Source: Marmoricola sp. OAE513
GTDB taxonomy: Bacteria; Actinomycetota; Actinomycetes; Propionibacteriales; Nocardioidaceae
Length of the DNA: 64,000 nt
Reading direction: 5' to 3'
NCBI RefSeq assembly: GCF_040546585.1
Contig: NZ_JBEPOC010000001.1
Location: 1,736,001 to 1,800,000, forward strand
Shown here: positions 42,079 through 46,589 of the stretch, piece after piece
How positions within the stretch are numbered: the first letter of the stretch is position 1
Layout of the letters: every line of letters starts with the position of its first letter
The notes under the pieces: model-generated
The model's database searches: none
Told to the model about the DNA's origin: nothing
The model's input: the letters and a program-made list of their open reading frames with translations, nothing else
Translations under genes and position numbers: made by a program

Positions 42079-42624
42079 GTGACCTCCGTGGACCAGACCC
42101 AGGACGCGCGACGTGCTGCGTTCGAGCAGGTCGTCGGCGAGGTCGTCGAGCCGCTGCGGAGGTTCCTCGCGCGGCGTACCGACCCGTCGACGGCCGACGA
42201 CGTGCTCGGCGACGTCCTCCTCGTGCTCTGGCGACGCCTCGACGGGCTCCCCTCCGACCCGCTCCCGTGGGCGTACGGCGTCGCCCGCAACTGTCTGGCG
42301 AACGCCGAGCGCGGTGCACGTCGGCAACGGCGGCTGGCGAACCGGATCGCGATCGTCGACCCGCCTGTCGAGGTGGCGCCGACCGACGAGGCCGACGAAC
42401 GGGTGCGCGAAGCGCTCGCCGCGATGAGTGAGCGCGAGGCGGAGCTGCTCCGGCTGTGGGCCTGGGAGCAGCTGGCGCCGGCCGAGATCGCCACCGTGCT
42501 CGGCATCAGCGCGAACGCCGCGAGCATCCGGCTGCACCGGGCGCGGGGGAAGTTCAAGCAGCAGCTGCGAAAGATCGACGAGGTCACCGGACATGAAGGA
42601 CCGAAGGGAGCGAACGATGACTGA
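42079..42624 (+). CDS. ECF-like sigma factor
   Basis: 181 residues, starting at GTG 42079. Region 2 has VVEPLRRFLARRTDPSTADDVLGDVLLVLWRRL; region 4 has MSEREAELLRLWAWEQLAPAEIATVLGISANAASIRLHRARGKFKQQL. It overlaps the downstream membrane protein gene by 8 bases, the usual arrangement of an ECF sigma with a cognate membrane regulator. Not close to the two sigma factors upstream. Confidence 0.9.
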   Translation: MTSVDQTQDARRAAFEQVVGEVVEPLRRFLARRTDPSTADDVLGDVLLVLWRRLDGLPSDPLPWAYGVARNCLANAERGARRQRRLANRIAIVDPPVEVAPTDEADERVREALAAMSEREAELLRLWAWEQLAPAEIATVLGISANAASIRLHRARGKFKQQLRKIDEVTGHEGPKGANDD

Positions 42625-43215
42625 CGACGACCGGCAGATGCTCGGCCGGGCCGACCCGGCCCGTTCGCTCGCGCCCCTCGACGCGACCGCGTTGAACGAG
42701 CTCCTGGAGGACACGATGGGCCAGAACGAAGACACGAACCCCGACGGCAGGCGAAAGGTGGTGCTGCTCGGCGCAGCCGCCGCGGCTGTCGTGGCGATCG
42801 CCATCGGTGTCGGGATCACGTTGGACGACGACGGCGAACCTCCCGAGACCGGCGACCGCCCGGATGTGACGAGCTCGACCGTCACCGAGCTGAGCGCCCG
42901 CCCTGCTCTCGGCAAGTGCATGGTGCCGTCACCCGAGACGGCCGCAAACCAGGATGTCGCCTTCGAGGGGCGTGTTGTCTCGGTCAAAGACGGGCTGGTC
43001 ACTCTCGACCCCCCACCCGGTTCTACACGGGAAGGGCCACCGACCGAGTCACCGTCAACGAGCCTGACCTGAACATGAGCGAGCTGCCCGTCGATTTCCA
43101 GGTCGGCCAGAACTACATCGTCGGCGCCACCGACGGCAACGTGTCGATCTGCGGGCTGAGCGGCCCCTCCAGCGAGGAGCTGCGCGCCCTCTACGACGCC
43201 GCGTTCCCGAGGTAG
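42617..43215 (+). CDS. single-pass membrane protein coupled to sigma factor (frame break at 43009-43014)
   Basis: About 199 residues if read through one frameshift. Cytoplasmic N-terminus (1-48) is short and acidic, a helix (KVVLLGAAAAAVVAIAIGVG) follows, then an outer domain with FEGRVVSVKDGLVTLDP continuing as TRFYTGRATDRVTVNEPDL and ending ELRALYDAAFPR. At the C6 run 43009-43014 one C appears to be missing: with C7 the frame joins exactly. No zinc-binding anti-sigma motif is visible, but the 8-base overlap with the sigma gene suggests it regulates that sigma. Confidence 0.75.
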
Positions 43216-43217
43216 CC

Positions 43218-43427
43218 GCCGAGCGGGCACAGATGTCCCACCCCCGTACGCCGAGCGGGCACAGATGCCCCGCCCCCGTACGCCGAGCGGGCACAGATGT
43301 CCCACCCCCGTACGCCGAGCGGGCACAGATGTCCCACCCCCGTACGCCGAGCGGGCACAGATGCCCCACCCCCGTACGCCGAGCGGGCACAGATGCCCCA
43401 CCCCCGTACGCCGAGCGGGCGCAGATG
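43218..43427 (+). repeat. array 1: six and a half copies of a 32-bp direct repeat
   Basis: Period 32 bp, copies at 43218, 43250, 43282, 43314, 43346, 43378 and a partial at 43410. Core GCCGAGCGGGCACAGATG is invariant in full copies; only one or two positions vary (T/C after GATG, A/G in CCCAC/CCCGC). The spacer CCCCCGTAC is constant. Lies between two rightward genes. Confidence 0.95.
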
Positions 43428-43463
43428 CTCGCCCTGGATGTCGAGATCACTACCCTCAACGCC

Positions 43464-43823
43464 ATGGAGACCAGCCTCGTCGAGCGCCTGCGCGCCGACC
43501 TGACCCAGGCGATGCGCGACCGCGACCGGGACGTCGCCCAGGTGTTGCGTACGGTGCTCTCCGCCATCGCCAATGACGAGGCACAACCGGTAGGCGACGC
43601 GGAGCTGCCTCTGGTCGAAGGCCCGATCGCCGGAGCGGTCCACGGCCTCGGCGCCGCTGAGGTCGCGCGTCGCCTCCTCACCGAGGAGGACGTGCGCGGC
43701 ATCGTGGACGGCGAGCGGGCCGAGCGGCTCAACGCCGCCGCCGACCTCGATGGGCACGGTCAGGTGCATGCGGCCGATGCACTGCGTGCGGCAGCTGCCG
43801 TACTCGACCGCTACCTCGCCTGA
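43464..43823 (+). CDS. YqeY/GatB-domain-like protein
   Basis: 119 residues. ETSLVERLRADLTQAMRDRDRDVAQVLRTVLSAIANDEA and the later GAAEVARRLLTEEDVRGIV, DGHGQVHAADALRAAAAVLDRYL match the YqeY/GatB-tail family in actinobacteria. These small helical proteins may bind tRNA or act with amidotransferases, but the function is not established. I use ATG 43464; longer in-frame reading would enter the repeat array, whose 32-base period shifts frame, so the array is not coding. Flanked on both sides by the 32-bp repeats. Confidence 0.82.
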   Translation: METSLVERLRADLTQAMRDRDRDVAQVLRTVLSAIANDEAQPVGDAELPLVEGPIAGAVHGLGAAEVARRLLTEEDVRGIVDGERAERLNAAADLDGHGQVHAADALRAAAAVLDRYLA

Positions 43824-43835
43824 ACATCACGAGCG

Positions 43836-43957
43836 GACATCTGCGTCCGCTCGGCGCGACCTGGCAAGACATCTGTGCCCGCTCGGCGCGACCGCGCGGG
43901 ACATCTGTGCCCGCTCGGCGCGACCACGCGGGGCATCTGTGCCCGCTCGGCGTCAGG
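43836..43957 (-). repeat. array 2: four copies of the same 32-bp repeat, inverted
   Basis: Copies begin near 43836, 43868, 43900 and 43932, each 32 bases apart, with core GCCGAGCGGGCACAGATG on the minus strand. The 10-base spacers differ between copies (for example ending CTGGCAA, CGCGCGG, CACGCGG), unlike array 1. Lies between convergent genes ending at 43823 and 43953. Confidence 0.93.
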
Positions 43958-44579
43958 GGCGCAGGTTGGCGCGGGCCCAGAGCGCGGCACTGGTCCGGTC
44001 GGCCACGCCGATCCGGCGGAAGACGTTGCCGAGGTGCACCTTGACCGTGCGCTCGGTGATCCCGAGGCGACGTGCGATCTGCTTGTTCGCCAACCCCTCG
44101 GCCACCAGGTCGAGCACCTCACGCTCCCGGGCGCTCAGCTCCGCGCCAGGCTCGGTACGGCGGGACGGCAGCAGCGCGCCCGCCACTCGCGGGTCCAACG
44201 GGGTGTGACCCTCGGCGGCGGACCGGATCGCGGCGACCACCTCGTCGGGCTCGCAGTCCTTGAGCAGGTAACCCACGGCGCCGGCCGTCAGCGCCTCGGT
44301 CACCCGGGCCTTGTCGGAGAACGAGGTCAGCATGACCACGGCGCCGGAGTACCCGTCGTCGAGGATCCGGCGGGTCGCCTCGATGCCGTCAGTTCCGGGC
44401 ATCGAGATGTCCATCAGGATCACCGCCGGGGCGAGCGTTCGCGCCAGCTCCTGGGCCTGCACGCCGTCGGCCGCTTCGCCGACGACGTCGAGATCGGCGA
44501 CAGCGCCGAGCAGGCCGGCGAGGCCGGTGCGGACGACGGGGTGGTCGTCCACGAGCAGCACGGAGATCGTCTCGCTCAC
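43953..44579 (-). CDS. NarL/LuxR-family response regulator
   Basis: 208 residues from GTG 44579. Receiver domain: [14 protein letters not shown], phospho-Asp in [16 protein letters not shown], Lys in [13 protein letters not shown]-terminal Lux[49 protein letters not shown]. Overlaps the kinase gene by 4 bp, forming a classic NarL-type pair. Target genes unknown; the secreted Asp/His-rich protein at the head of the operon is a candidate. Confidence 0.93.
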
Positions 44580-46003
44580 AGCGTCAGCCTCCACCGACAC
44601 CCGGCACCCGGCGCGGACGACACGGCCAGCTCGGCGCCCGACGCGCTGGCCAGGTCGGCGAGCACGCGCAGCCCGAAGTGGCCTTCCTCGGGGTGCCCCA
44701 GGACGGCCTCGGCGTCGAAGCCGATGCCGTCGTCCGCGATCTCGACCACGGCACCGGACCCCTCGGTCCCCGCGAGCCGGAGCCACACGTTCTGGGCTCC
44801 TGAGTGCCGGCGTACGTTCTGGAAGCACTCGTGCACGATCCGGAAGACGAGCCGGTCCGCCTCCGCGCCCAGGCCGAGGTCGGACTTGGGCAGTTCGAGG
44901 TGCACGTCGATGTCGCGCGAGCGCAACGTCGTGGAGAGGTCGCGCAGCACCTCGACGAGCCCGGCCGACTCGAGCGTCTCGGGATAGATGTCGACGAGCA
45001 GCGTGCGCAGTCCGCCGATGCTGAGCCGGAGGGTGTCGGCCGCGCCGCGGAGCTCCGTACCGAGCTGCTCGTCACCGAGTCCCTCGGCCCGCGACGCCGC
45101 GCCACTCACGGCGAAGGAAGCGCCGGCCAGCTCCTGGACGACTCCGTCGTGCAGCGTGCCGGCGATCCGCCGGCGCTCGTCGGCCGACGCGTCGACCGCG
45201 CGCTCCAGCAGGGCCTCACGCTGCCGCTGAGCTCCACGGACCCGGGTGAGCAGCTGCCAGAGCAGGGGGATCATCAGCGCGGTGAACACCAGCAGGCTGC
45301 TGACCGTCACGCCCGCGAACCCGCGCCACAGCTGCGAGGTGCGCTGGTCGACCTCGTCGTACGGCGAGTAGAACTCGAACAGCATCGGGGTGCCGTCGGG
45401 CGTCCACACCGGGCGGTAGGCCTCGAGCAGCTTGCCCTGCCCGCGTTCGTAGACGTTCTCCGGTTCCTCGAGGTCGGAGACCTCGGCCGTGGTGCGCGGG
45501 TGGACGAAGACCTCGCGCTCCTCCTCGTCCAGGGTGAACTGCCGTCCGATCAGCCGAGGCTCGTCGGAGTAGACGATCCTCCCGTCGCGGGACCACAGCT
45601 TCACCCTCATCAGCGACGAGGAGGAGAGGTAGTCCTCGAGGGCTTCCTGCAAGCTCGCGAGCGCGGCCGGGTCGCCCGTGACGATGCCGTTCTGCAGGGC
45701 GGGTTGCACGACGGCTTCGGCGAGCAGATCGGCAGTGTTCGCAGCGTCGTTGACCGACTGCCGCTCCGCGAGCGTCCGAGCGGCGAAGACACCGAGGACG
45801 CTGACGGCGACCAGGACGAGCAGGGCGATGCCGGCCACGGTGAGCACGATCCGGCGCGGTGCGGGCACGTCACCGTCGAGGTCGCCGCGCCGCTGCGCGA
45901 CCACAACCCACGGCGCCCGCCCGGAGAGCTTCCGGGTGGCGCCGTCGTGGACGCCGCCCTCAGGGGCGCGCGCGTCCGGAGGATCGCTGGTCATGGAATC
46001 CAT
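44576..46003 (-). CDS. NarL-type sensor histidine kinase with extracellular sensor
   Basis: 475 residues from ATG 46003 (ATG 45994 also possible). First helix about 48-70 ([20 protein letters not shown]), then a roughly 150-residue extracellular sensor ([20 protein letters not shown] ... [12 protein letters not shown]), second helix ([18 protein letters not shown]), HisKA_3 box with His in [17 protein letters not shown], and HATPase ([34 protein letters not shown]). Autophosphorylates and passes phosphate to the coupled regulator. It follows the Asp/His-rich secreted protein gene by 28 bases. Confidence 0.9.
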
Positions 46004-46031
46004 TGTGGGTGGTGGGACCTTGCAGGTCGGG

Positions 46032-46589
46032 TCAGTCGTCGGATCCGTGACCGCCGCTGCCGTGGTCGTCGTCGAGGTCGTGGTCAGCACCGTCGTCCGA
46101 CCCGTGACCGCCGCTGCCGTGGTCGTCGTCCGCGTCGTGGTCAGCACCGTCGTCGGACCCGCCACTCTTGCCGCTGGAACCGCTCCCGCTGGACCCGTGT
46201 CCGCTGTTCGATCCCCGGTCGTTGTCGTCGTCGGAGTCGTCGCCCGCGGAGTCACGACCGCCGTGACCCGACCGACCACCGTGGTCGTCGCCTGCGTCGT
46301 GACCGGGACCGTCGTCCGACCCGTGGCCGCCGCGACCGTGGTCGTCGGGCGTCGGACCCGAGGTGGGCCCGCTCGTCGGACCGTCGGTCGAGTCGTCGCC
46401 GCGTCCGCGGTCCGGCGTACCGTCGTCGTCCGCCTCCGAGCTCGGGGTTGCCGACGGCGTACTGGTCTGTGCCTGCTCAGGGACCCGGACCGGGACGTCC
46501 CGGCTGAAGGAGTCGTTGCCGGCCATGCCGACGGCGGCCGGTACGCCGGCGACGAGGAGCGCGCCGGTCGCTACGAGGTACTTGATCAT
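46032..46589 (-). CDS. secreted Asp/His/Gly/Ser-rich repeat protein
   Basis: 185 residues. Signal-like N-terminus (MIKYLVATGALLVAGVPAAV), a short Pro/Thr/Ser segment, then a disordered acidic tail of repeats such as DDHGSGGHGSDDGADHD, with tens of Asp and a dozen or so His. This composition suggests Ca2+ or transition-metal binding outside the membrane. The gene is first in an operon with a sensor kinase and response regulator. Function is unknown; a metal-buffering or sensing accessory is a possible inference. Confidence 0.75.
   Translation of the reverse strand: MIKYLVATGALLVAGVPAAVGMAGNDSFSRDVPVRVPEQAQTSTPSATPSSEADDDGTPDRGRGDDSTDGPTSGPTSGPTPDDHGRGGHGSDDGPGHDAGDDHGGRSGHGGRDSAGDDSDDDNDRGSNSGHGSSGSGSSGKSGGSDDGADHDADDDHGSGGHGSDDGADHDLDDDHGSGGHGSDD

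Follow-up and report, generated by a model that had tools for sequence, protein, structure and literature searches.

The ways in which transcription ends without U-tracts in high-GC actinobacteria and in which convergent genes are kept separate are poorly settled. The mycobacterial interspersed repetitive units (MIRUs) are tandem intergenic repeats beginning at or over a stop codon, which lie within operons as direct repeats with a length of about 50-100 bp. The BOX elements of the pneumococcus are modular, contain a variable number of internal repeats and are able to fold into long hairpins. According to passages of PMC3733652, REPs and BIMEs occur as short conserved intergenic copies, which are often oppositely oriented and found mainly behind genes and in the spaces between ORFs that are co-directional or convergent. 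In REPINs, as characterised in parts of PMC3116915, an inverted pair encloses a spacer of conserved length and compensatory changes are found at the apex.

The window, i.e. the whole stretch of 64,000 nucleotides of Marmoricola sp. OAE513 that was analysed, contains two arrays of a 32-bp repeat facing each other (Table 1). The arrays had been proposed in an earlier note made from the sequence alone, and they are real: the core GCCGAGCGGGCACAGATG was detected 11 times with up to three mismatches compared to 0.18 matches expected from shuffles. Plus-strand cores are located at 43218, 43250, 43282, 43314, 43346, 43378 (exact) and 43410 (one mismatch) and minus-strand cores at 43838 (two mismatches), 43870, 43902 and 43934 (exact), resulting in seven plus-strand and four minus-strand units spaced 32 bp apart throughout. 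Thus, array 1, whose cores occupy 43218-43427, has seven cores instead of the six and a half copies counted previously, and its spacers, formerly described as constant, vary at two positions (T/C and A/G). The four copies of array 2 were counted correctly, whereas its extent of 43836-43957 has to be replaced by the 43838-43951 spanned by the cores. Array 1 starts 2 nt past the TAG codon, and, in the direction of the minus strand, the outermost unit of array 2 begins 1 nt past the stop codon of the response regulator gene. The innermost 18-bp cores are separated by 410 nt and the 5' ends of the innermost units by 446 nt.

Table 1. Features around the two facing arrays, given as positions in the window.
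Feature	Position	Strand	Description	Basis
Stop codon TAG ahead of array 1	43213..43215	+		ORF list
Array 1	43218..43437	+	seven inward-reading 32-bp units	core scan and PWM scan
Unit of array 1			core GCCGAGCGGGCACAGATG, followed by TCCC/CCCC and spacer; seventh unit with one mismatch, spacer repeat ends there	
Gap between facing arrays	43428..43831	.	contains a gene	
YqeY-like gene between arrays	43464..43823	+		Pfam PF09424, residues 7-41
Array 2	43832..43951	-	four inward-reading units	core scan and PWM scan
Response regulator	43953..44828	-	LuxR-type (GerE) DNA-binding domain	Pfam
Histidine kinase ORF	44576-46279		next to the response regulator	

The extent given for the response regulator is that of the longest ORF; the gene caller places its start at 44600. 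The Pfam match of the YqeY-like gene has an E-value of 1e-7 and covers only the residues listed. Among the 24 genomes of the genus that were searched, this gene was matched in seven (OAE513 counted), with no match in the sister genome G012. Among the other array-bearing genomes of the genus it was detected in G014 but not in G006, G007, G008, G009 and G012, and it was rejected as a functional partner of the arrays. The earlier description of arrays placed around a YqeY-like gene is correct as to the placement, but the gene itself seems to be of no relevance, as the facing units are less than 200 bp apart in 43 of the 46 two-sided elements of OAE513 and the sister genome.

Judged from its sequence, the array pair of the window represents a single member of a family of modular elements that are dispersed over intergenic regions. 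The genome of OAE513 (one contig, 3,890,914 bases) contains at least 28 such elements with 189 units. The 18-bp core was found at 183 places with up to three mismatches (reversed control: 15), the tandem pattern yielded 101 pairs (control: 0), and a position weight matrix (PWM) applied to stretches of this genome gave 191 hits, 189 of them within the 28 elements; PWM hits of up to 10.5 bits and two isolated hits (1797485 and 3232216) were not counted as elements. The number of 28 is a minimum since the period was fixed at 31-33 in the tandem search and only the matches listed were considered. In the sister genome 27 elements with 98 units were identified, most of them consisting of two plus two units. 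According to the PWM the unit reads GCCGA[GC][CA]GG[GT]CN[CG][AG]GATGTCCC[GA]CC and is followed by a nearly free spacer. The genome-wide core search proposed in the earlier note therefore shows that the core is not confined to the window, and the recurrence of this architecture in several genomes that were assembled independently argues against both an assembly collapse and the local duplication of a single coding fragment. Neither the literal core nor a description of such elements was found in the open-licence literature searched, in which the papers on REPs and REPINs deal with other bacteria. A known structured RNA was rejected, as Rfam 15 produced no match at the gathering score in the window and five further loci.

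Each element is composed of n inward-pointing units on one side and m inward-pointing units on the other, with a motif of 24 bp and a period of 31 or 32 bp. In all 46 two-sided elements of both genomes the plus array precedes the minus array, and nine of the 55 elements were one-sided as detected, one of them at a contig end. When the units were located by a weight matrix blind to spacing, the interval between same-strand units was exactly 32 in 185 of 186 cases and 31 in the remaining one. The 8-nt spacers are alike inside an array (1.6 of 8 positions differ between neighbours), the pattern to be expected if tandem duplication is followed by drift. Spacers of different arrays are nearly random, deviating at 4.7 of 8 positions (random sequences: 5.66), and 129 of the 186 spacers are distinct. 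A spacer length that remains fixed despite a free sequence suggests selection on the spacing; however, the exact period could partly stem from tandem duplication, which counts against an array of protein-binding sites. In eight other genomes, where any period from 19 to 49 was allowed, 148 of the 150 matches listed (229 in total) have a period of 31 or 32; counted by hand, 53 show 31, 95 show 32, and one each shows 30 and 21. A period of about 3 x 10.5 bp thus holds in ten genomes. The short and, within arrays, similar spacers led to the rejection of a CRISPR, in agreement with the earlier note, which had considered them too short.

The elements are closely associated with the ends of genes, as predicted by a home-made caller based on codon usage. 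After removal of the element at the contig end, which lacks a neighbour, 54 elements were left, of which 26 are located between convergent, 23 between co-directional and five between divergent genes. In OAE513, 14 of 28 elements occupy convergent positions, as opposed to about 24 of the 228 gene pairs without an element (p=2e-7), the background representing the 38 convergent among 256 pairs minus the elements. Of 72 array ends on the sense side of a gene, 58 lie within 10 nt of the stop codon and 46 at -5 to 2 nt from it, including 35 at 1 or 2 nt, whereas none of the 28 ends facing a gene start is within 10 nt and all are at least 15 nt away. Counted per element, 48 of the 54 place an array end behind a gene on its sense side, 42 do so within 10 nt of the stop codon, and 16 of these have two such ends. 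At four ends (34828 in OAE513; L150, L159 and L169 in the sister genome) the stop codon falls within the first unit (distance -5), so that the array overlaps the gene end. In other genomes array ends near stop codons were found in 4 of 22 cases compared to a background of 3.4% (p=0.006), using a strict pattern which misses decayed outer units. Two of the five elements in divergent pairs represent one orthologous site (3213288 in OAE513, L151 in the sister genome).

Flanking proteins in the sister genome are mostly 70-97% identical to those of OAE513. Only three of the 28 elements of OAE513 have flanks in common with any of the 27 element loci of the sister genome. No unit was detected in any of the 20 sister-genome regions fetched for the other 25 elements, 17 of which contain homologues of genes from both sides; a score above 4 was reached in L194 alone, by a hit of 6.3 bits located within a gene. 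At the site corresponding to element 1295005 the sister genome has an ordinary long GC hairpin where OAE513 has arrays. Inspection by eye of 13 site comparisons with diverged flanks revealed no target duplication, one mark of a transposon with multi-site ends (Tn7/Mu type), and several elements appeared to take the place of the whole intergenic region between the two stop codons rather than to insert into it. Where arrays fill the space from stop to stop, whatever ends transcription presumably lies within the array.

Four of the 20 regions (L180, L186, L192 and L194) carry units of another family with the 22-bp consensus GAGTAGGGCCCGCCGCGCGGTT, and facing arrays of these units were found at the further sister-genome loci L218, L221, L222, L223 and L227. 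Among the 24 genus genomes, tandem pairs of this family were found in the sister genome only (31 pairs), and no arrays of 22-bp units were seen in OAE513. All 15 two-sided clusters among the 20 scanned are arranged plus then minus, and of 39 intervals, among them those of an array fetched twice (L163 and L222), 36 measure 22.

The tandem pattern GCCGASMGGNC at a period of 31-33 occurs in 42 of the 293 genomes of the order that were searched. All 13 genomes with at least three tandem matches belong to the family of OAE513 (f1); outside it the maximum is two matches, while the reversed control reaches three in one genome. The units of the relatives share the half GCCGASCGGGC, whose constancy is partly due to its use as the search pattern, and differ by lineage in the second half, which is CAGATGTCCC in OAE513 and the sister genome, CTGATGCTGC in G008, GTTCTGGTTG in G006, CTTCCTCGCGCTGG in G218 and G056, CTTCCTGCCCGTC in G204 and CTTCCTGACACCT in G277. 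A core scan of genome contigs returned 100 stretches; the 80 listed are mostly single matches, which we read as chance, and tandem matches were found in one MAG (LacPavin) only among the matches listed. A generic scan for facing arrays identified 11 arrays in the OAE513 loci, one of them of another family, one array in 200 kb of G009 and none in 200 kb of G020; having recovered just 11 in the OAE513 loci, it apparently misses many arrays. In G008, runs of N directly inside the facing arrays of L146 and L147 suggest that short-read assemblies may under-count the elements.

The distances between the innermost facing units, measured from 5' end to 5' end, cluster near 41, 51 and 62, with some larger values. 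The core gap amounts to 13-17 in 26 and to 24-28 in 10 of the 46 two-sided elements. When periods from 5 to 20 are compared, the 53 distances below 200 bp are best described by one of 10.4 (R=0.84); 43 of these distances originate from OAE513 and the sister genome and ten, taken from the facing pairs listed, from G009 (six) and G006, G267, G277 and G056 (one each). With the means of ten distance classes, a period of 10.5 gave R=0.78 (p=0.001) and the A-form period of 11.0 gave R=0.28, the classes having been formed once the data were known and related copies being non-independent. Distances of 73 to 176 bp may represent the classes 41, 51 and 62 plus decayed units, as 31.5 equals 3 x 10.5. The nine distances above 400 bp show no phasing; among them is the 446 bp across the YqeY-like gene, which is out of helical phase with the short distances. 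Core gaps above 32 taken alone are without significance at 10.5 (p=0.24, n=10, three above 400). The earlier note had proposed a protein-binding array with all cores on one face of the helix, which gains genuine support from the 31/32 spacing in ten genomes and from the facing distances stepping by about one turn.

The innermost pairs of the sister genome are more alike than permuted pairs in the core (p=0.0005), at positions 23-25 (p=0.0045) and in the spacer (0 of 2000 permutations). In OAE513 the effect is weaker, with p=0.049 for the core, p=0.38 for positions 23-25 and p=0.008 for the spacer. Among the folded apices, 8 of 20 in the sister genome and 3 of 23 in OAE513 form an unbroken stem of 16 or more pairs, the stems differing in sequence. 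The apex hence covaries in the manner of an RNA or single-stranded DNA hairpin, which counts against a reading as protein-bound double-stranded DNA. From the second layer outward, elements of both genomes show no excess of pair identity across the dyad, and the folding of single units does not exceed that of shuffles on average over 13 genomes (mean z -0.06 +- 0.27), despite strongly folding units in G006 and G204. Taken together, RNA pairing fails to explain the tandem units, and both a hairpin at the level of the unit and a long rod-like pairing of whole arrays were rejected. The median best energy in 60 nt is -31.1 in convergent pairs of OAE513 with arrays (n=15) and -31.5 in those without (n=23), compared to -23.4 in divergent pairs (n=66) and -26.7 in coding samples (n=268). 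The longest T or A run does not exceed 3 in the 15 convergent pairs with arrays and 5 in the 23 without. With hairpins present and a U-tract absent, a canonical intrinsic terminator was rejected for the array pairs.

With respect to known systems, the elements resemble REPs and BIMEs as dispersed, conserved intergenic units located mostly at gene 3' ends, but the unit is on average non-palindromic, has no GTAG or CGTC foot as judged by eye, and forms tandem 31/32-bp arrays which always point inward. They share with REPINs the inverted pair in all 46 two-sided elements, a gap of conserved length and the covariation of the innermost pair, clear in the sister genome and weak in OAE513. In contrast to REPINs, they possess extra tandem units outside the pair and facing steps of one helical turn, and no RAYT-type domain was found: the Y1 transposase domain (PF01797) was detected in 0 of 24 genus genomes and in five of 14 control genomes, leading to the rejection of mobilisation by a RAYT. 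The transposase search covered the Y1 type. Since no Y1 transposase domain was found and the unit is non-palindromic, the elements do not belong to the REPINs and are regarded as a new variant of interspersed 3'-end repeats. They have in common with MIRUs that tandem intergenic repeats start at stop codons, but are facing arrays of 31/32-bp units. Unlike in BOX elements, no ends similar to boxA or boxC were noticed, and outside the innermost pair each of the two facing arrays evolves on its own. The earlier conclusion that no known element fits was fair, although it did not name the closest kind, which is BIME/REPIN-like at gene 3' ends.

Our preferred reading, which we hold tentatively and rate at somewhat less than an even chance, is that the elements are BIME/REPIN-like phased arrays of putative protein-binding sites which serve as a barrier to transcription, or as its insulator, at the 3' ends of genes, by a mechanism that we infer. 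The features on which it is built appear directly in the sequences, namely the dispersal, the inward orientation, the three-turn period with free spacers, the one-turn facing steps, the array starts behind stop codons, the convergent preference, the lineage-specific second half and the turnover between sister species. A putative protein would bind the units of both arrays on one face of double-stranded DNA, as suggested by the three-turn spacing, the one-turn facing steps and the unpaired outer layers. The bound arrays would form a bidirectional block together with the apex hairpin, and this block would terminate transcription or insulate it at the 3' ends of genes, chiefly where two genes converge; a role in ending transcription is suggested by an apex hairpin as strong as those of other convergent pairs, by the adjacency to stop codons and by the preference for convergent genes. 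The facing distances of the 22-bp family, which are unphased (n=11, p=0.22), count against phased arrays, and the divergent pairs, where no terminator is needed, are an odd place for a block at gene ends. An extended version of this reading seems unlikely as a whole: the elements would be gene-end boundary elements of a bacterial family, unlike known terminators, in which two facing arrays of protein sites, set at intervals of three helical turns and phased across the dyad, stop or insulate polymerases from both sides, a conserved factor reads the common half and a fast-changing one the other half, giving rise to lineage dialects, and one gene end may be occupied by different array families in sister species.

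Alternatively, the elements might act as bidirectional RNA terminators in which the innermost inverted pair forms a GC-rich hairpin without U-tract in both transcripts and the extra units are by-products of duplication. We consider this rather unlikely, though it deserves serious attention. It would account for the innermost identity and the long apex stems described above, for the strong hairpins of array-free convergent pairs, which the array sites equal, and for the GC hairpin of the sister genome at the site of element 1295005. However, the facing distances step by 10.4 bp and not by 11, and a loop longer by one turn should be neutral to a hairpin; the exact unit spacing is left unexplained, the outer layers do not covary, and one-sided elements and elements between divergent genes exist. 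Furthermore, template switching at inverted repeats could match the apices without selection. It also seems unlikely that the elements are mainly selfish, non-autonomous mobile DNA (REPIN/MITE-like) which is tolerated behind stop codons, the arrays serving as repeated transposase-binding ends and at times flanking a gene (yqeY-like, endonuclease-like or OsmC-like). The few flanks shared with the sister genome and the lack of the element at all 20 other sites fetched agree with such mobility, and so do the facing arrays 0.45-1.1 kb apart in five genomes (OAE513, G012, G009, G218 and G277). The selfish mini-repeat suggested in the earlier note thereby keeps support, most positions not being common to the sister genome. 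Moreover, the inverted pair, the conserved length and the compensatory apex are as reported for REPINs in parts of PMC3116915. Yet several elements appear to replace sequence from stop to stop, no target duplication was visible, no Y1 domain was found in the 24 genus genomes, and the helical phasing and the starts at stop codons demand an additional reason. Carriage by viruses or plasmids was rejected as well, since viral contigs, phages and plasmids gave no match, records of OAE513 or its near relatives perhaps being left out there. The terminator and the selfish element are live rivals and may be partly compatible, if mobile copies are kept because they terminate.

An improbable further explanation is that the arrays are supercoiling sinks, recruiting a topoisomerase where convergent transcription piles up positive supercoils, as E. 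coli REPs and BIMEs do with gyrase. The long conserved motif exceeds what would be expected for a gyrase preference, and 28 of the 54 elements are not convergent. The preference for convergent positions and 3' ends would nevertheless fit, and REPs at the 3' ends of ORFs are discussed as gyrase targets in a section of PMC3733652.

In each genome the elements label tens of gene ends with a simple geometry, and the second half of the unit, which differs by lineage, suggests a partner that evolves rapidly. Should a binding protein be identified, it would represent a novel type of boundary factor; should there be none, the elements would be dispersed repeats of an unusual sort that are not known to have a means of moving.

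Genes between or next to arrays were observed at further places. The orthologous loci L028 (1346803-1348035 in OAE513) and L159 (C6:444714-445886 in the sister genome) have facing arrays around a gene of about 1 kb which we take, from its sequence, to encode an endonuclease-like protein, and in G009 (L197:4642-5440) facing arrays flank a presumably OsmC/Ohr-like gene. Gaps of 0.6-1.1 kb were found elsewhere in G009 and also in G218 and G277. In the window, the gene upstream of array 1 (42618-43215) seems to be frameshifted in a C-rich run near 43010-43020, where two overlapping frames resemble one protein, reflecting either a true change or a sequencing error.
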